DNA of 64,000 nt from Pectinatus sottacetonis (GTDB taxonomy: Bacteria > Bacillota > Negativicutes > Selenomonadales > Selenomonadaceae). The position numbers and the translations under genes were made by a program. Where the stretch lies: positions 2,118,001-2,182,000 of the forward strand of contig NZ_WIQK01000001.1 of the NCBI RefSeq assembly GCF_015732155.1. The letters are read 5' to 3'. Below the pieces are notes generated by a model. It was not told the DNA's origin. It did not search any database and was given only the letters and a program-made list of their open reading frames with translations. Shown piece after piece: positions 45,776-54,006 of the stretch. Every line of letters begins with the position of its first letter. Positions within the stretch are counted from its first letter, which is position 1.

Positions 45776-48472
45776 ATGACAGAAACTCATAAATCACCTG
45801 ATGAAATATTGCAGTTGATAGAAAAAGAAGAAAAAAAAGCAAAATATGGACAGTTGAAAATATTTTTCGGTTATGCGGCAGGCGTTGGCAAGACATATGC
45901 AATGCTTAAAGCGGCTCATAGGGAAAAAGATCAAGGAACAGATGTCGTTGCCGGATACATTGAACCACATGCCAGACCTCAGACAACAAAACTTTTGGCC
46001 GGGCTGGAGCAGCTGCCGCCGCGTATTGTCATCCATGGTGATATTTCACTTAAAGAATTTGATATAGACAGGGCTTTAATGCGTAAGCCGCAGCTTATTC
46101 TTGTTGACGAATTGGCCCACACCAATGCGGATGAATGCCGTCATAAAAAGCGCTATAAAGATATAGAAGAATTATTGAAAGCCGGTATTAATGTATATAC
46201 TACAGTCAATGTACAGCATATTGAAAGTCTTAATGATATAGTAGCATCAATAACGGGGATAATTGTTCAGGAAAGAATACCAGACTTTGTTTTCGATAAT
46301 GCAGATCAGGTGGAACTAGTTGATATAGAACCGGATGACCTTATAAAACGTCTTAATGAAGGGGCAATATATAAGACAGTACGAGTGCAGACAGCATTAA
46401 AAAATTTTTTTACTGTTGAAAATCTTATTGCTTTGCGGGAACTGGCTTTGCGTCGTACAGCCGATCGTGTGAATAAAATATCACAAAAAGCCCGTAGTGA
46501 GTCAAAAGGTGAATATTATACAGACGAGCATGTTCTTGTCTGCTTATCATCATCACCCTCAAATCCCAGGATAATAAGGACGGCAGCACGACTTTCCCGA
46601 GCTTTTAATGGCAAGTTTACGGCTCTTTTTGTTCGTACAGGTGATTTTGGAAATTATTCTGCTGCTAATAAACTGCGGTTGCGGGAAAATACTCGTCTGG
46701 CAGAACAGATGGGGGCGGGAATTGAAATGGTAACTGGTGATGATATTGCCTATCAGATCGCGGAATTTGCCAAATATGCCGGAGTGTCGAAAATAGTTAT
46801 TGGCAGAAGTACAACTAAGTCAAAAATAGGTTTTATTCGTCAGGGATTTTTGGATAAGCTTATAAATTTGGCATCTAATCTGGATATTTATGTCATTCCT
46901 GATAAAGCCACACCTATTTATAAGAAAAAAATGAAATCAATATTCAGTAGAGGGGTTAATAAAGCTGATTTATATAAAATAGTTGTCATGTGGTTGGTGA
47001 CAACCTTAATAGCATTTTTGTTTAGTATTATAAATCTTGGACAGGCTGATATAGCAACAATATATATATTAAGTGTACTAATAACAGGAGTTATAACATC
47101 AGATCGGTTTTATAGTATACTGTTATCTTTTTTTAATGTGCTTACCTTTGATTATTTGTTTGTTTCTCCCAAATATACATTTTCTTATTCAGACTATAAA
47201 TATACAGGGACATTTTTGATAATGTTTATCGCAGCTTTTATCACGGCCAGTCTGGCTAGTAAAATAAAAAGGCAGTCAGAGCAGTCAGTTCAAACAGCTT
47301 ATAGAACTAAAATATTACTTGATACCAATCAGCTGCTGCAAAAAGCAAAAGATATAAATGAAATAGCGCAAATTACTGCAGGCCAGCTTTTAAAATTAAT
47401 CGGCAGGACGATTATCTATTATGGGTGTAATGAGGACAAATTGCTGGCACCTGTCATCAGGGCATCAGATAAAGACAAAGACCTTAATACATATATATCT
47501 GTTAATGAAAAAGCTGTTGCCCAGTGGGTTTTTAAAAATAATAAGCATGCCGGGGCATCTACCAATACATTAGGAAGTGCAAAGTGTCTGTATATGGCAA
47601 TACGGACAGAGGATCGTGTTCATGGAGTTATTGGCATTGCACTTGCAGACAGTCGATTGGATCCTTTTGAAAGCAGTATTGTTTTATCTATCTTAGGAGA
47701 ATGTTCACTGGCTATGGAAAAAGAATTGTATAATCAGAAACGCCGTCAGGCTGCGGTCCAGGTACAAAACGAAAAACTGCGCAGTAATTTTCTTCGATCC
47801 ATTTCCCATGATTTGCGTACACCTCTGACCAGTATATCTGGCAATGCTGATTTTTTACTTAATAATGGGGAAAATATAGGTGCTGATAAACGAAAAAAAA
47901 TTTATACAGCTGTTTATGATGATGCCAAATGGCTTATAAATCTTGTGGAGAATATTTTATCTATCACGCGCATAGAAAATGGCAATATGAAAATAAATCG
48001 ACAAGTCGAGCTGATCAATGATGTAATAAATGAAGCTGTTTCCCATATAGCTGACTCACAGAAAGCAGGACATGTTATAAAGTTTATCGAACCAGCCAAT
48101 ATGTATTTTTCCAAGTTTGATGCAAAATTAATAATGCAGGTTGTTATTAACATAATTGACAATGCTTTGAAATATACGCCTGATGGTTCAATTATAGAAA
48201 TAAAGGTGAAAAAACAGGGAAAATATATTGCTATATCTATTGCCGACGATGGTGACGGAATTGCCGATGACAAAAAAGAAAAAGTATTTGATATGTTTTA
48301 CACAGGTGATAATAAATCTGCTGACAGCAGAAGAGGTATGGGGATTGGTCTAGCCTTATGCAAAAGTATAATAGAAGCTCATGGTGGGACAATAGAAATA
48401 AAGGATAATAAACCTAAGGGAACCATATTTGTATTCACATTGCTGGTGGAGGAGGTAAATATAAATGAATAA
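45776..48472 (+). CDS. kdpD: Sensor histidine kinase KdpD
   Basis: 898 residues, full-length KdpD. Order: N-terminal KdpD domain with Walker A GYAAGVGKTYAML and LVDELAHTNADECRHKKRY; universal-stress-like domain (about 245-370); four membrane helices (about 400-500, DUF4118); GAF domain; HisKA with SISHDLRTPLTSISG (His near residue 678); HATPase with NIIDNALKYTPDGS and GMGIGLALCKSII. It senses low K+/osmotic status and phosphorylates KdpE. Overlaps kdpE by 8 nt. Confidence 0.96.
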   Translation: MTETHKSPDEILQLIEKEEKKAKYGQLKIFFGYAAGVGKTYAMLKAAHREKDQGTDVVAGYIEPHARPQTTKLLAGLEQLPPRIVIHGDISLKEFDIDRALMRKPQLILVDELAHTNADECRHKKRYKDIEELLKAGINVYTTVNVQHIESLNDIVASITGIIVQERIPDFVFDNADQVELVDIEPDDLIKRLNEGAIYKTVRVQTALKNFFTVENLIALRELALRRTADRVNKISQKARSESKGEYYTDEHVLVCLSSSPSNPRIIRTAARLSRAFNGKFTALFVRTGDFGNYSAANKLRLRENTRLAEQMGAGIEMVTGDDIAYQIAEFAKYAGVSKIVIGRSTTKSKIGFIRQGFLDKLINLASNLDIYVIPDKATPIYKKKMKSIFSRGVNKADLYKIVVMWLVTTLIAFLFSIINLGQADIATIYILSVLITGVITSDRFYSILLSFFNVLTFDYLFVSPKYTFSYSDYKYTGTFLIMFIAAFITASLASKIKRQSEQSVQTAYRTKILLDTNQLLQKAKDINEIAQITAGQLLKLIGRTIIYYGCNEDKLLAPVIRASDKDKDLNTYISVNEKAVAQWVFKNNKHAGASTNTLGSAKCLYMAIRTEDRVHGVIGIALADSRLDPFESSIVLSILGECSLAMEKELYNQKRRQAAVQVQNEKLRSNFLRSISHDLRTPLTSISGNADFLLNNGENIGADKRKKIYTAVYDDAKWLINLVENILSITRIENGNMKINRQVELINDVINEAVSHIADSQKAGHVIKFIEPANMYFSKFDAKLIMQVVINIIDNALKYTPDGSIIEIKVKKQGKYIAISIADDGDGIADDKKEKVFDMFYTGDNKSADSRRGMGIGLALCKSIIEAHGGTIEIKDNKPKGTIFVFTLLVEEVNINE

Positions 48473-49163
48473 ACCATTGTTGCTTGTAGTTGAAGATGAT
48501 GCGGCAGTGCGCAGTCTTATAAGTATTACTCTGAAAATTGAAGATTATAAATTCCATACAGCAGAAACTGGACAACAGGCTGTTATTGAAGCCGTGTCAC
48601 AAAAACCAGATATAATGATTCTGGATTTGGGACTGCCGGATATAGACGGAATAGAAATAATAAAAAAGATAAGGTCATGGTCTAAAATGCCGATAATAGT
48701 TGTCAGTGCTCGCAGTGATGATAAAGATAAAATAGAAGCACTGGATAATGGTGCTGATGATTATATCACAAAGCCTTTTTCAGTAGAAGAACTTTTAGCC
48801 AGAATACGTGCAGCACTTAGGCGGGCTACTTATATGATGTCAGAAAAAAATAAGGGTGCTGTGTTTATAAATGGCGGATTAAAAATTGATTATGCAGCCG
48901 GTTGTGTTTATATAGATGGTTTGGAAGTTCATTTGATGCCTATGGAATATAAGCTGTTATGTCTGTTAGCCAATAACCTGGGAAAAGTATTGACTTATAA
49001 GTATATAACAAGATCCATATGGGGAAATGCCTGGGATAACAATGTGGCGTCGTTAAGAGTATATATGGCAACTCTGCGGAAAAAAATAGAGAAAGATGCG
49101 GCTGTTCCCGAATATATTCAGACACATATTGGTATAGGCTATAGGATGTTGAAATTAGATTAA
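48465..49163 (+). CDS. kdpE: Response regulator KdpE
   Basis: 232 residues, OmpR/PhoB family. Receiver domain: VVEDDAAVRSLI, phospho-acceptor Asp in MILDLGLPDIDG (about residue 52) and DYITKPFSVEEL. The C-terminal winged helix has LMPMEYKLLCLLANNLGKVLT and VASLRVYMATLRKKIEKDA. GGAGG precedes the ATG. Activates kdpFABC in the standard scheme. Confidence 0.96.
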   Translation: MNKPLLLVVEDDAAVRSLISITLKIEDYKFHTAETGQQAVIEAVSQKPDIMILDLGLPDIDGIEIIKKIRSWSKMPIIVVSARSDDKDKIEALDNGADDYITKPFSVEELLARIRAALRRATYMMSEKNKGAVFINGGLKIDYAAGCVYIDGLEVHLMPMEYKLLCLLANNLGKVLTYKYITRSIWGNAWDNNVASLRVYMATLRKKIEKDAAVPEYIQTHIGIGYRMLKLD

Positions 49164-49253
49164 CAGAGATTCTATTCTTGAAAAAAGCATTAAATTAATT
49201 TAATATTAATATAGTATATTAATTAATAATATAAACATAATAAGGAGCAATAT

Positions 49254-50192
49254 ATGCCACCGGTAAGTAAGAGAATTTTGAGAAAAGTTGCCCATATGTA
49301 TTATGAAGCTGATATGAAACAGAGCGATATTGCGAAGAGATTAGGACTCGACCGCACTACCGTCAGTAAATATTTAAAACGGGCCAAAGAGCAGGGAATC
49401 GTTAAAATAACCTTGGAATATGATTCGTATAGTGATTTAGAAAATATGCTGGAAGAAAAATTTAATTTAAAAGAAGTTTATGTTGTGCCGTCAGCAGGCA
49501 GCCAGTCAGAAACGCTTTCACTTGTGGGAAAGGCAGCACTGCATCTATTATCACGGTTGATAAAAAATAGGATGGTAATTGGTTTTAACTGGGGCAGATC
49601 CATGGGGGCAATAGCTAATGAGGCGACCAGAGAAAGCTTTGCAGCAGTAAATGCGGATTTCGTCCCGTTGGTAGGTGGGTCAGAGAGTCTTGATAGTGAA
49701 CTGCTCGTAAATACGATATGCTATAAAGTGGCTAATGCTTTTAATGCTAACACGCATTATTTATATGCACCGGCGATTACCCGCACAGCAGATATAAAGG
49801 ATGCTATAATAAGGGATGTCAATTATTTGAAAATACAGGATTTTTGGAACAGGTTGGACATAGCTTTTGTAGGAATAGGTTCGCCATATTCCGCATCTAA
49901 TGTGATCTGGACGGATGGTTTGAAATCTGATTATATACAAACTAATTTCAAGGGAAGTATAGCCGGGGAGCTTTGTACGCGCTTTTATGATAAAAATGGT
50001 AATGAAGTACCTACTGAAGTTGTAGAAAGGACAATAGCAATTCCTTTTGAGAAACTGCGAAAGGTAAATTATTCCATCGGGGTGGCGGCTGCTGGTGAGA
50101 AGGTTCCGGCTATTTATGCTGCTTTTCGGGGAAAATTAATCAATGTACTTATTACGGATAAATCTACAGCAGAAAAACTTTTGGCATATTAA
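49254..50192 (+). CDS. SorC/DeoR-family transcriptional regulator, probable sorbitol regulator
   Basis: 312 residues. N-terminal HTH MYYEADMKQSDIAKRLGLDR then TTVSKYLKRAKEQGIVKI; C-terminal SorC sugar-phosphate-binding domain (VIGFNWGRSMGAIANE, FVPLVGGSES, VGIGSPYSAS, INVLITDKSTAEKLL). AAGGAG ribosome binding site. It converges with srlD; by location it probably responds to glucitol-6-phosphate and acts at the gutM promoter palindrome. A candidate promoter, TTGAAA-17-TAATAT, lies upstream. Confidence 0.87.
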   Translation: MPPVSKRILRKVAHMYYEADMKQSDIAKRLGLDRTTVSKYLKRAKEQGIVKITLEYDSYSDLENMLEEKFNLKEVYVVPSAGSQSETLSLVGKAALHLLSRLIKNRMVIGFNWGRSMGAIANEATRESFAAVNADFVPLVGGSESLDSELLVNTICYKVANAFNANTHYLYAPAITRTADIKDAIIRDVNYLKIQDFWNRLDIAFVGIGSPYSASNVIWTDGLKSDYIQTNFKGSIAGELCTRFYDKNGNEVPTEVVERTIAIPFEKLRKVNYSIGVAAAGEKVPAIYAAFRGKLINVLITDKSTAEKLLAY

Positions 50193-50224
50193 AAGGCACT
50201 CTGTGTAATAGAGTGCCTTTTAAT
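50191..50224 (+). terminator. Terminator of the SorC-type regulator gene
   Basis: AAAAGGCACTCT (50191-50202) and AGAGTGCCTTTT (50210-50221) form a perfect 12-bp stem; the left arm overlaps the stop codon. U-rich on both strands, so it may work in both directions. Confidence 0.85.
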
Positions 50225-50241
50225 ATATTTTGAGAGATTTA

Positions 50242-50270
50242 TTGACAGAATTAATATAATATTTTATTAT
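50242..50270 (+). promoter_or_regulatory. Promoter of the candidate small RNA
   Basis: A perfect TTGACA (50242-50247), 17-bp spacer and TATTAT (50265-50270). No open reading frame follows before the terminator at 50311. Confidence 0.65.
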
Positions 50271-50276
50271 TGAAAT

Positions 50277-50344
50277 AGACTTAGTTACTCGGGAAAAGTA
50301 TAAAGTCTGGGATCACTGCAGCTTCGTTCTGCGGTGGTCTTTTT
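50277..50344 (+). ncRNA. Candidate small RNA between the sorC-type gene and srlD
   Basis: The predicted transcript of about 68 nt starts after the promoter at 50242-50270. It can form a 5' stem (GACTT/AAGTC with inner TACT/AGTA) and a 3' terminator hairpin, GATCACTGCAG (50311-50321) with CTGCGGTGGTC (50329-50339), followed by five T. There is no start codon with a ribosome binding site. It is antisense to whatever the - strand srlD transcript carries past its stop at 50367. No known family recognised. Confidence 0.5.
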
Positions 50345-50366
50345 ATTATATATATTTGTCATAAAA

Positions 50367-51179
50367 TCATCCTCTTGTTTTTCCGCCGGCAACATTAATT
50401 GTTATGCCATGCACATAGGAAGCACGTTTACTGCTGAGAAACATTACCATATCAGCAACTTCACTCAATTTACCTTCGCGCCCGAGTGGAATAGTTTTTG
50501 TGTTAGTATAGCCTTCTCGCAGCTGTTTGACGGTTATACCGCGTGTATAAGAAAGTGCTTCTTCATAGGCTTGTGTCCTAAGACCGGTAGCTTCCATGAT
50601 ACCAGGAGCTACTCCGACAATGCGTATATTATGGCGTCCTAATTCCTTGGCCCAGGATCGGGTAAAAGAATTAACAGCATTTTTAGTCGCGGCGTAGATG
50701 CTTTGTCCTTCGGAACCTTCCAGTCCACTTTCTGAAGACATGTTGATTATTATACCGCTGCCGTTATTTATAAATTCATGGCCAATGATCTGAGCACATA
50801 GAAATACTCCTTTTAAATTTACAGCAGAAACTTTATTGAAGACGGCTTCATCTAATTCATACTCACTATAAGGCTTTTTAGTATCAACTAGTAGACGGGG
50901 AATGTTGATTCCAGCGTTATTTACAAGAATATCAATATGAGGAAATTGTTTTTTTGCTGTTGCCAGCATATTTTTGATGCTGGCTGATTTTGTTACATCG
51001 GTTACTACATATAAATAACTACCGCCATTTTCAGTATTCAACTTTACACCGTTAGGGTTCATATCACACACTATAACATTAGCACCGTTATCGAGAAATG
51101 ATTGTGCTATAGTTTTTCCTATTCCAGATGCACCACCTGTTACTATAGCCGTTTTTCCTTCAATATCTAACCATGACAT
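50367..51179 (-). CDS. srlD: Sorbitol-6-phosphate 2-dehydrogenase (SDR family)
   Basis: 270 residues, short-chain dehydrogenase. NAD-binding TGGASGIGKTIA, DILVNNAGINIP, catalytic Ser in NMSSESGLEGSEG, and YAATKNAV (Tyr-Lys). Oxidises glucitol-6-phosphate to fructose-6-phosphate. It is of the longer SorD/GutF type with the insertion VDTKKPYSEYELDEAVFNKV. Last gene of the gutM-srlAEB-D operon; GGAGTG ribosome binding site. Confidence 0.9.
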   Translation of the reverse strand: MSWLDIEGKTAIVTGGASGIGKTIAQSFLDNGANVIVCDMNPNGVKLNTENGGSYLYVVTDVTKSASIKNMLATAKKQFPHIDILVNNAGINIPRLLVDTKKPYSEYELDEAVFNKVSAVNLKGVFLCAQIIGHEFINNGSGIIINMSSESGLEGSEGQSIYAATKNAVNSFTRSWAKELGRHNIRIVGVAPGIMEATGLRTQAYEEALSYTRGITVKQLREGYTNTKTIPLGREGKLSEVADMVMFLSSKRASYVHGITINVAGGKTRG

Positions 51180-51185
51180 TATATA

Positions 51186-51560
51186 TCACTCCGTTTTTAT
51201 AATTTTTATTTTATTACCCGGTGATGGGCAGAAAATCGGCTTGTTTTCTAAATAAATACTGCCTTCCAGGGATTCTTTGTCAGCATTGTTATTAAATTTC
51301 AAGGAAATATGACCAAGATCCTGGAGATTTTTTTGAACCTGTCCGCCTACATAGACGATTTTGTAGGTATTATTTTCAATTTTTAAAATGTCTCCTGATT
51401 CGATAATATCACTTAAATTATTACCTTCATGTAACACACAGAATTCGGCTAATTCCGGAGGAGCATTCTTATTGAAAAGAATAATTAAATTTTCGGTTAT
51501 AAAATCTTTAACTAGAGGACCTAAGCTGCTGACAGTAGTAGAATAAATTTCTCTCAACAT
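51186..51560 (-). CDS. srlB: PTS glucitol/sorbitol-specific EIIA component
   Basis: About 124 residues. IYSTTVSSLGPLVKDFITEN at the N-terminus, LIILFNKNAPPELAEFCVLH with the likely phosphorylated His near residue 65, and SPGNKIKI at the C-terminus match the GutA/SrlB family. ATG 51560 is 5 nt after AAAGGAGG; an in-frame GTG at 51566 is closer and less likely. Phosphoryl carrier from HPr to SrlE. Confidence 0.9.
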   Translation of the reverse strand: MLREIYSTTVSSLGPLVKDFITENLIILFNKNAPPELAEFCVLHEGNNLSDIIESGDILKIENNTYKIVYVGGQVQKNLQDLGHISLKFNNNADKESLEGSIYLENKPIFCPSPGNKIKIIKTE

Positions 51561-51589
51561 AAACACCTCCTTTTGATATATAAATGTTT

Positions 51590-52585
51590 TTAATGAGTAT
51601 AGAGTCCAAAGCTGGCCAGCCAGGCTAATATGACACTTAAAGGTCCTGTGATAAATCTGCCATAAAGAACAGAAGGTACGCCTACTTCAACTGTTTCAGG
51701 TTCAGCTTCAGCTAAGCCTAAACCAACAGGAATAAAGTCGCATGCAGCCTGAGCATTTATGGCGAATAAAGCAGGAAGAGCGAGCTGAGGTGGAATTGCT
51801 CCTTTGCCAATTTCTACGCCGATCAATACACCGATTACCTGTGCGATTATGGCACCAGGGCCGAGAAATGGTGAAAAGAAAGGGAAAGAACATATTAAAG
51901 ATAGGATAATTAATCCCATTAAAGAACCAGCCAGAGGTGTTAATACATGGGCGATAATATCGCCTATGCCGCTATAAAGAACAACACCTATAAGCATGGA
52001 AACAAAGGCCATAAAAGGGAGAATAGTTTTTATTATAGTATCAATAGTATCACGTCCTGATTGATACAAAGTGGCAGTTACAAATCCCATGAATTTGCCG
52101 ACTCTGGCCATAAAACCAGCTTGTTGTTCGGATATTTTTTTTGAAGTATCATATTTCTTTTCTGCGTTTTGCAGCGGTTTTTCAACCGGGGCAGCTGTAC
52201 CGGAGTTTATGTCAGCAGCGGGTAAGATGCAATCTTCGGTTACGGCAGAAACGTATATATCTTCGGTAATAAATTTAGCCATGGGCCCGCTGGCACCAGT
52301 AGGATTTAAATTTATCGTATAGATATTTTTTTTAGGATAAATCCCACAGCGTAATGTACCACCGCAGTCGATTACAACGCAAAGTATCTGGTCATCAGGA
52401 ACACTGGTCTTAAATCCATCAATTAATTCACAACCAGTCATTTCAGCAATTTTACGGGAAACAGGTGAAATAACGCCACCGGTAATATTGACAATTTTAT
52501 TTTTTTGCGATGTTGGTTTCAAAATGAGTGGGCCGCCAAAACCAGATGAACCGGCTTTAACAAGGACGTTATTATAATTAGTCAT
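51590..52585 (-). CDS. srlE: PTS glucitol/sorbitol-specific EIIB component (SrlE)
   Basis: 331 residues. IIB domain with the conserved Cys motif [16 protein letters not shown] (about residue 72) and [14 protein letters not shown] linker of about 35 residues follows, then membrane helices (IIC2-like) with [34 protein letters not shown] and [25 protein letters not shown] ribosome binding site. Works with SrlA to import and phosphorylate sorbitol. Confidence 0.93.
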
Positions 52586-52601
52586 AATGAATTCTCCTTA
52601 A

Positions 52602-53153
52602 TTAACGTAATGATTTCAATTCAGAGCTGAGTTTTATATTTTGCTGCCGTGATACATAGATTGTTGTCAGGTCAGTTACTACACCACGAATAAAGTTGAT
52701 CAGGATACCAATAAGAAAATAGCGTAGTGCTAAATCGACAGTTGATAAGCCCAAGCTGGTAACACCATGTGCAATGCCGAGAAATACGAATAACTCACTG
52801 GGATCTACATGGGGAAATAATCCATTTAAAGTGTGACATGAATAAGATGCTGCAGCATAGTAAGAAGGTTTATATTTTTCCGGTAAAAATTTGCCGAGTG
52901 ATAGAGTCATTGGATTACAGAAGAAAAATGTTCCAATAACAGGTAAAAGTATATAACGTGAAAAAACATTGCCAGCGCATAAATGAGCAAACTTTTCTAC
53001 TTTTTCTGTTCCGACAAAGCGAATTATAGCATTCATAGCAACTAGTAAACAGATCAAAGTAGGTACGATACCTGAAACTAAACTGACAAAAGTCTGCCCT
53101 CCTTTATTGAACATACCGATGAATCCCTGGGCCAGCCATACTAAAGTGTCCAT
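52602..53153 (-). CDS. srlA: PTS glucitol/sorbitol-specific EIIC component (SrlA)
   Basis: About 183 residues, membrane subunit. [62 protein letters not shown] then NPSELF-like [12 protein letters not shown], which is SrlA/GutC throughout. ATG 53153 is 7 nt after AAAAGGAG; the frame extends to 53183 without a ribosome binding site. A 242-bp gap to gutM (53154-53395) shows no gene or terminator, only a short AGCTG/CAGCT repeat. Confidence 0.93.
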
Positions 53154-53395
53154 AAAATTACTCCTTTTCATAAATTTGGTCAATGATAGATAGGTGGAAG
53201 AATTAATTTGGGTAAAAGCAGCAGATTTTGGAGATGTTTTGTTGGGAATGAAGTTTTATTTACAGCTGTATAACAGGAAAAGGCATACATTTTAATAAAT
53301 AATTATAGGATATTTAGAAATAATGATCTTTTGTATTATTAATAAAATATATCAGCTGATTTCACAGCTTCAACCAGTATATACCACTACAATAG

Positions 53396-53803
53396 TTATA
53401 CCTGAGTATCAGTGCAGAGTCCTTTTTCTGAAACATTTGTCATATATTGATTATAATCATTGACAGCCGATAAAACTGCATGGGAAGTTTGTTTGTTGAA
53501 TCTGGCACAATAGTTTTTATCTATGTCAGTCAAAATCAAATTATTCAACAGATTAAAGTCCCTGAAGTGAGCAAACACAGTCAGCCCTTCTAATTTTCTT
53601 CCGCAGATTATTCGGCAATTATCATCAATACACAGTAGTATAAAAATGCCAGCATGAAATTTTCCTTTGCTCCTGCCAATGGCAACACGGCTGATCCGCC
53701 GCATTTTTTTTAATTCCCGGTAAAAGGTTTTCATTTGGTAAATATTAAAAACTGCCTGCAATGCCCATGCTAAGATACCTGCTATTATTAAAATTAATAA
53801 CAT
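53396..53803 (-). CDS. gutM: Glucitol operon activator GutM
   Basis: 135 residues. One N-terminal membrane helix (LILIIAGILAWALQAVFNIY), then FYRELKKMRRISRVAIGRSKGKF and a cytoplasmic domain with GRKLEGLTVFAHFRDFNLL, the GutM family pattern. GutM activates the srl/gut operon in enterobacteria by a mechanism that is not well defined. AAAGGAG ribosome binding site. First gene of the operon. Confidence 0.9.
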   Translation of the reverse strand: MLLILIIAGILAWALQAVFNIYQMKTFYRELKKMRRISRVAIGRSKGKFHAGIFILLCIDDNCRIICGRKLEGLTVFAHFRDFNLLNNLILTDIDKNYCARFNKQTSHAVLSAVNDYNQYMTNVSEKGLCTDTQV

Positions 53804-53822
53804 AATTCTTCTCCTTTATTAT

Positions 53823-53848
53823 TTAACAATCACATATGTGATTGTTAA
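53823..53848. promoter_or_regulatory. 26-bp perfect palindrome downstream of the gutM promoter (probable operator)
   Basis: TTAACAATCACAT (53823-53835) followed by its exact complement. It lies between the -10 and the gutM ribosome binding site, where a bound repressor would block transcription. A partial copy (ACATATGAT, 53867-53875) overlaps the -10. The TCACA-TGTGA order is opposite to a CRP site. SorC-type binding is the favoured guess. Confidence 0.65.
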
Positions 53849-53870
53849 TATCATTTGTTACGATGTACAT

Positions 53871-53899
53871 ATGATAAGATAATTTTTATTAAAAGTCAA
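53871..53899 (-). promoter_or_regulatory. Promoter of the gutM-srl operon
   Basis: On the - strand TTGACT (53894-53899), 17-bp spacer and TATCAT (53871-53876), about 68 nt before the gutM start. Confidence 0.7.
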
Positions 53900-53977
53900 T
53901 AGATAAAATTAAAAAATATTAAATAGTTTACATTTTTTATAATTTTATAATAAATTAAGTTGTAAAATAAATATGTC

Positions 53978-54006
53978 TTTACAATATTACACATTACTGT
54001 TATAAT
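53978..54006 (+). promoter_or_regulatory. Promoter of the dehydrogenase gene
   Basis: TTTACA (53978-53983), 17-bp spacer and a perfect TATAAT (54001-54006), divergent from the gutM promoter. Confidence 0.7.

Follow-up and report, generated by a model that had tools for sequence, protein, structure and literature searches.

Cis-encoded antisense small RNAs are short RNAs that are made from the opposite strand and have a promoter and a terminator of their own. The unit described here, behind srlD of Pectinatus sottacetonis, resembles them in lying on the opposite strand, where it would cover the presumed 3' UTR or an intergenic stretch in the mRNA of a glucitol-type PTS operon, but it differs in a two-hairpin fold that is kept and covaries across operons of two kinds. 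Another small RNA tied to the expression of a sorbitol PTS is Spot 42 of E. coli, which is described as a trans-acting RNA repressing srlA (PMC9037510). Whereas Spot 42 is trans-encoded and acts at the srlA start, the unit in the window (the whole stretch of 64,000 nucleotides that was analyzed) has no match to it at the gathering score.

No match to Rfam (release 15) at the gathering score was obtained in the window or in the loci L194, L197, L198 and L199, and a search down to E 1 in L078 and L079 gave a single weak match, to VrrA, located away from the unit. Two weak Rfam matches of the window unit, JA04 and Ref1C, are likewise short RNAs with a final hairpin and a U-run, but the scores of 20.8 and 20.5 bits compare with cut-offs of 81 and 90, respectively. 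A literature search covering the accessible parts of PMC9037510 and PMC4304618, among others, found no account of such an RNA, and a narrow search returned no small-RNA paper for this bacterial group. Judged from the sequence comparisons described below, the unit is probably a previously unnamed regulatory RNA, representing a new family outside Rfam, at glucitol-type PTS operons.

The sorbitol locus and the predicted small RNA unit

The genes of the operon are arranged in the order gutM-srlA-srlE-srlB-srlD, and the 174-nt gap between sorR and srlD holds a two-way terminator, a promoter-like site and a + strand hairpin with a T-rich tail (Table 1). The two-way terminator, with stabilities of -24.1 and -21.9 kcal/mol on its two strands, lies on the far side of the small RNA as viewed from srlD. 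With its hairpin ending 24 nt from the stop codon, the small RNA stays clear of the coding sequence of srlD. At the other end of the operon, a perfect 26-bp palindrome directly before gutM (53823-53848) is a candidate operator for a SorC-type regulator; it does not recur in the sorR-srlD gap.

Table 1. Features of the sorbitol locus in the window and positions of the four units found in other genomes
Feature	Position	Strand	Basis or remark
sorR, SorC/DeoR-like regulator	49254..50192	+	Pfam Sugar-bind; convergent with the srl operon
Two-way terminator of sorR (+) and probably the srl operon (-)	50190..50222	both	13-bp perfect inverted repeat
Small RNA promoter, TTGACAG, 17-nt spacer, TATTAT	50242..50270	+	Score 11/12; common to five units (TATNNT)
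Predicted small RNA, ~70 nt	50277..50345	+	Both ends inferred; fold z -3.85; top R2 match in window
5' hairpin, outer stem AGACTT/AAGTCT	50277..50308	+	z -1.67 alone; hand alignment of five
Intrinsic terminator hairpin	50309..50341	+	13 pairs, 7-nt loop, z -4.87
Terminator T-rich tail; hairpin followed by TTTATTAT	50342..50349	+	Sequence
srlD, sorbitol-6-phosphate dehydrogenase, last operon gene, faces small RNA	50367..51179	-	NCBIfam NF004817 above cut-off, Pfam adh_short
srlB, srlE, srlA, gutM of glucitol-type PTS operon	51186..53803	-	Pfam/NCBIfam
G010 unit	L078:1349-1457	opposite srlD	TTGACA-17-TATNNT, gap 38 nt
G061 unit	L079:1341-1448	opposite srlD	TTGACA-17-TATNNT, gap 35 nt
G002 unit	L194:8908-8801	-	Behind DRL oxidoreductase gene; model, then architecture scan
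G004 unit	L199:3929-3820	-	Behind DRL oxidoreductase gene; architecture scan without RNA model

The initial annotation had described the promoter with the correct letters and coordinates, followed about 40 nt later by an 11-bp hairpin with a T-run and with no open reading frame in between. The terminator begins 38 nt past the -10 element, and the stem counts 13 pairs instead of 11, four of them G-U as read by eye. No + strand ORF of at least 20 aa was found between promoter and terminator. A + strand GTG ORF begins within the hairpin and continues opposite srlD; neither Pfam nor NCBIfam gave a match for it. A 36-aa ORF on the - strand overlaps the unit. The 5' stem that had also been proposed is not significant in this one sequence, since 15 of 200 shuffled sequences were equally stable; its support comes only from the comparison across units, in which it was kept.

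We then asked how often such elements occur by chance. Within 48000-52500, 18 sites look like promoters, no more than the shuffled mean of 18.3, and the small RNA promoter scores highest among them. Sites scoring 11/12 are, as a class, present eight times in the window, whereas 20 shuffles averaged 4.75. Genome-wide, the exact motif was counted 15 times, and it was never seen in the reversed control. Twelve of the other 14 sites sit 35-222 nt before a co-directional ORF, one leads into a cobalamin riboswitch, and the last is separated from the next ORF by 523 nt. When the promoter (at least 11/12) was counted together with a hairpin of at least 8 bp and 5 G-C within 150 nt, the window had one pair, 300 shuffles had two, and 400 kb sampled from the same genome also had two; at 10/12 or better the sample held eight pairs, one of which is a tRNA gene and three of which lie between convergent gene ends. 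These counts indicate that promoter-terminator pairs are uncommon yet existing. The earlier argument that RNA production is the only purpose such a pair can have claimed too much as a matter of logic; its conclusion stands by way of the comparison with other genomes.

Two further sites in the same genome were observed in the course of this count. A promoter (11/12)-terminator pair at L159:13073-13191 (-) lies behind a gene end and faces a convergent gene. The cobalamin riboswitch that follows an exact promoter motif (L150:3653-4110, G000:C1:1093651 onward, also L064) is succeeded by two hairpins that look like terminators by eye, and the first large gene after it is encoded on the other strand and ends at L150:4200; this element is possibly a riboswitch-controlled RNA or small ORF.

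Units of the same architecture in other genomes

Searches based on sequence gave no relatives. In DNA searches, no second copy of the unit was among the matches in its own genome; at least 43 of 60 relatives had some match at E<=1, those listed being short and none a homologue; and in 380 genomes of the class, the own genome aside, just two matches were obtained at E<=0.01, of 21 and 26 nt, one at an ORF end and the other resembling the hairpin stem. Plasmids and phages gave only short weak matches, and GTDB contigs searched via the regulator gave a single locus with 31% identity. A covariance model from the sequence of the window unit alone found no relative, and the match of model R1 at L108 is not a member but terminates an ORF. 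The view that the unit has no relatives rested on these DNA searches, the one-sequence model and a by-eye look at the srlD flanks.

A scan for the architecture gave a different result. In 35 flanks 3' of srlD, we looked on the strand opposite the gene for a hairpin preceded by a promoter (at least 10/12), with at least 330 nt covered in 28 of the first 30 srlD loci. A unit was found in three flanks, those of the window, G010 and G061, the last of which was recovered at a slightly lower limit on hairpin G-C, while 32 of 35 had none at 10/12 or better. Given the units at L078 and L079, we reject the reading of an ordinary orphan pair without relatives. In a same-genus genome, G003 (L123), 9/12 promoter-like sites precede a 19-bp hairpin with 11 G-C opposite srlD; this site, which is possibly a distant or an unrelated unit, was not counted.

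Two more units came from operons of another kind. The G002 operon is of glucitol type with the order SorC-GutM-GutA-oxidoreductase (DRL_cat)-aldolase-EIIC-EIIBC, and the unit lies opposite it between the oxidoreductase and aldolase genes; in G004 an EIIC gene comes after the unit, with no aldolase found in between. A second scan covered 20 further SorC loci of the family and located the unit in one of them, that of G004; nine other gut-type loci among the 20, from other genera and some only partly covered, were without a unit. At G002, a second 10/12 promoter with a hairpin opposite the operon was seen in the aldolase-EIIC gap (L194:9921-9825, -) and was not counted.

The five units share a defined geometry. 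All have TTGACAG, a 17-nt spacer and TATNNT, a six-pair 5' stem that begins 5-7 nt past the -10 element and closes a loop of 15-20 nt, and a terminator of 13-14 bp located 35-40 nt after the -10 element. The promoter ends like TATCGTATNCT in four units and has drifted in that of the window. Each unit lies on the strand opposite the operon, behind the oxidoreductase gene, with 24-60 nt from the hairpin end to the stop codon of the facing gene. In all five the RNA strand is more stable than its complement (-23 to -26 vs -16 to -20 kcal/mol). Among 244 loci (1.36 Mb, redundant), the exact promoter and hairpin geometry was found in the five units and otherwise only in L071 and L241.

The units are distributed over two genera of one family, with the window, G002 and G004 in one and G010 and G061 in the other. 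The closest srlD genes found are those of G010 (77%) and G061 (76%), whose sorR genes are likewise the closest (73 and 72%), and the srl genes of the window resemble those of the other genus more closely than they do the srlD-type genes within its own genus. Beyond the unit, the neighbours in G010 and G061 differ from the window and from each other. In G003, the kdpE end is followed directly by a gldA-like gene, whose window counterpart is at 53978, and the rest of kdpE, as well as gldA with its promoter, align on both sides. Because the sorbitol genes are absent from this junction, 49164-53977 is either an insertion in the window or a loss in G003. In L029-L032 the two genes share a strand, with sorR upstream of gutM; sorR therefore moved or was turned in the window, while the small RNA stayed behind srlD.

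Covariation and covariance-model searches

In the MAFFT alignment of the five units, the terminator stem was paired in 61 of 61 cells with double changes in seven of 13 pairs; none of 500 shuffles reached as high, and slid versions were at most 63% paired. The 5' stem, hand-aligned on its outer pair in these five sequences, was paired in 30 of 30 cells with four of six pairs doubly changed, and when the 3' arms were reassigned, 4 of 120 arrangements reached 30 cells. For the whole structure, the model-fitted alignment, which leans to its model, was 96.7% paired, with 13 of 19 pairs changed on both sides. Because any set of terminators must pair and hence covary, the informative part is the 5' stem, and the set of five sequences is small. 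The promoter letters are less variable across the units than the RNA letters.

We built a covariance model, R2, only from the G010 and G061 units with the promoter excluded. Over the 64-kb window without filters, R2 placed the window unit first (27.5 bits, E 0.0011) and a runner-up at 15.2 bits (E 0.68), while with strict filters it missed the unit in the own genome. It scored G002 at 44.3 bits in the 380 class genomes, 52 of which had a match at E<=1, and G004 at 29.7 bits. Because non-members reach up to 41.4 bits, in that case a plain terminator, R2 bit scores are insufficient for membership. The training pair aside, 28 fetched loci were checked for a promoter, and TTGACA-17-TATNNT was in place only at G002 (L166). 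The match at L171 is a gene terminator, and L174, with TTATCA-17-TATAAT, was not counted as a member.

With a model trained on all five units (R3), these ranked 1 to 5 over the 380 genomes (89.8 to 59.1 bits), with the next at 49.4 bits, among the matches listed; at least 174 genomes had a match at E<=1. None of 24 other R3 loci fetched has gut-type genes nearby. TTGACA is present at three of them (L226, L229 and L235), of which L235 is within a transposase-like ORF and L226 is one of at least ten copies in its genome.

The check that the initial annotation had proposed, whether promoter and stems are conserved and show compensatory changes, thus gave a positive outcome in four other genomes. 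Given the elements, their shared geometry, the covariation, and the strand and position, all observed directly in five genomes, the unit is very probably a real small RNA gene.

Cis, trans and other readings of the unit

We infer that transcription from the unit's own promoter would yield an RNA of ~70 nt with two hairpins from the strand opposite the operon. The operon mRNA, for its part, probably extends through the unit to the hairpin beyond. An operon-strand hairpin, the predicted end of the mRNA, lies directly past the unit in the window, G010, G061 and G004, and no operon-strand terminator was found after the unit in G002. Because the first clear operon-strand terminator lies past the unit in four of five cases, the operon mRNA would contain, behind the oxidoreductase gene, a stretch exactly complementary to the RNA. 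If the two pair in the cell, this could alter the stability or decay of the mRNA, where it ends, or how far transcription reads through into the genes that follow. Action on the srlD mRNA, one of two suggestions made earlier, fits the constant position opposite the operon, and we give the predicted RNA roughly an even chance of being cis-antisense to the mRNA of its own operon behind the oxidoreductase gene.

The other suggestion was action in trans on sugar genes. A reading of this kind, in which the same RNA binds other mRNAs or a protein and owes its place to co-inheritance or co-regulation, is less probable but is the main rival in view of the conserved fold. Antisense action in cis does not depend on such a fold, so a structure that has survived letter changes in both hairpins also fits a trans role, as do the promoter and terminator of its own. 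The genome has an Hfq gene (G000:C1:2617371-2617556 and C2:2484-2669, with identical scores, so that C2 may repeat part of C1 or hold a second copy), and Spot 42 acting on srlA in E. coli is a precedent (PMC9037510). On the other hand, the unit always lies opposite a glucitol-type operon and behind its oxidoreductase gene, and predicted pairing gave a trans role little support. In a crude duplex test, which used mononucleotide-shuffled RNAs and ignored target folding, 50 to 198 of 200 shuffled RNAs equaled the pairing at six srl/gut start regions; for two possible starts of srlA the numbers were 50 and 157 of 200. The one start to stand out among 16 regions was that of thrB (0 of 200, and 2 of 500 in a second shuffle set), which is weak after 16 tests.

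Two readings dispense with a function of the RNA. The unit could be a transcriptional device in which polymerase that starts opposite the operon end collides with operon transcription or blocks it, with the terminator stopping antisense transcription from entering the coding sequence and the RNA as a by-product. The convergent geometry, with 24-60 nt to the stop codon, and promoter letters steadier than those of the RNA agree with it, yet it gives no role to the 5' stem, which is kept via double changes, and we consider it improbable. Still further down the scale, the hairpin could be a tandem sorR terminator that shields srlD from antisense read-through, preceded by a chance promoter in AT-rich DNA. 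Although sorR ends 117 nt upstream and three of the eight pairs in the 400-kb sample lie between convergent gene ends, sorR already has a strong terminator in the two-way repeat, and promoter and spacing are kept in G010, G061, G002 and G004 without a preceding sorR. The conserved promoter largely refutes this reading.

As a whole, the locus is best explained by an RNA gene of a new family that most likely acts in cis on the operon mRNA, to which we assign a probability of about 0.5. That one antisense family serves two biochemical kinds of glucitol-type PTS operon in this lineage, as a built-in brake or as a 3'-end controller, is a more tentative proposal, which we regard as rather unlikely. 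In that case each RNA, with promoter and fold kept while the letters drift, would be tuned to its own operon, and this regulatory part would be inherited and transferred together with the operon.

For the search of short RNAs, these results indicate that an architecture scan at the same genomic place can find members missed by sequence searches and single-sequence covariance models. The units would form a new RNA family linked to polyol uptake, and they offer a case, open to experiment, in which a structured antisense RNA is encoded behind a metabolic gene by the very operon it faces.
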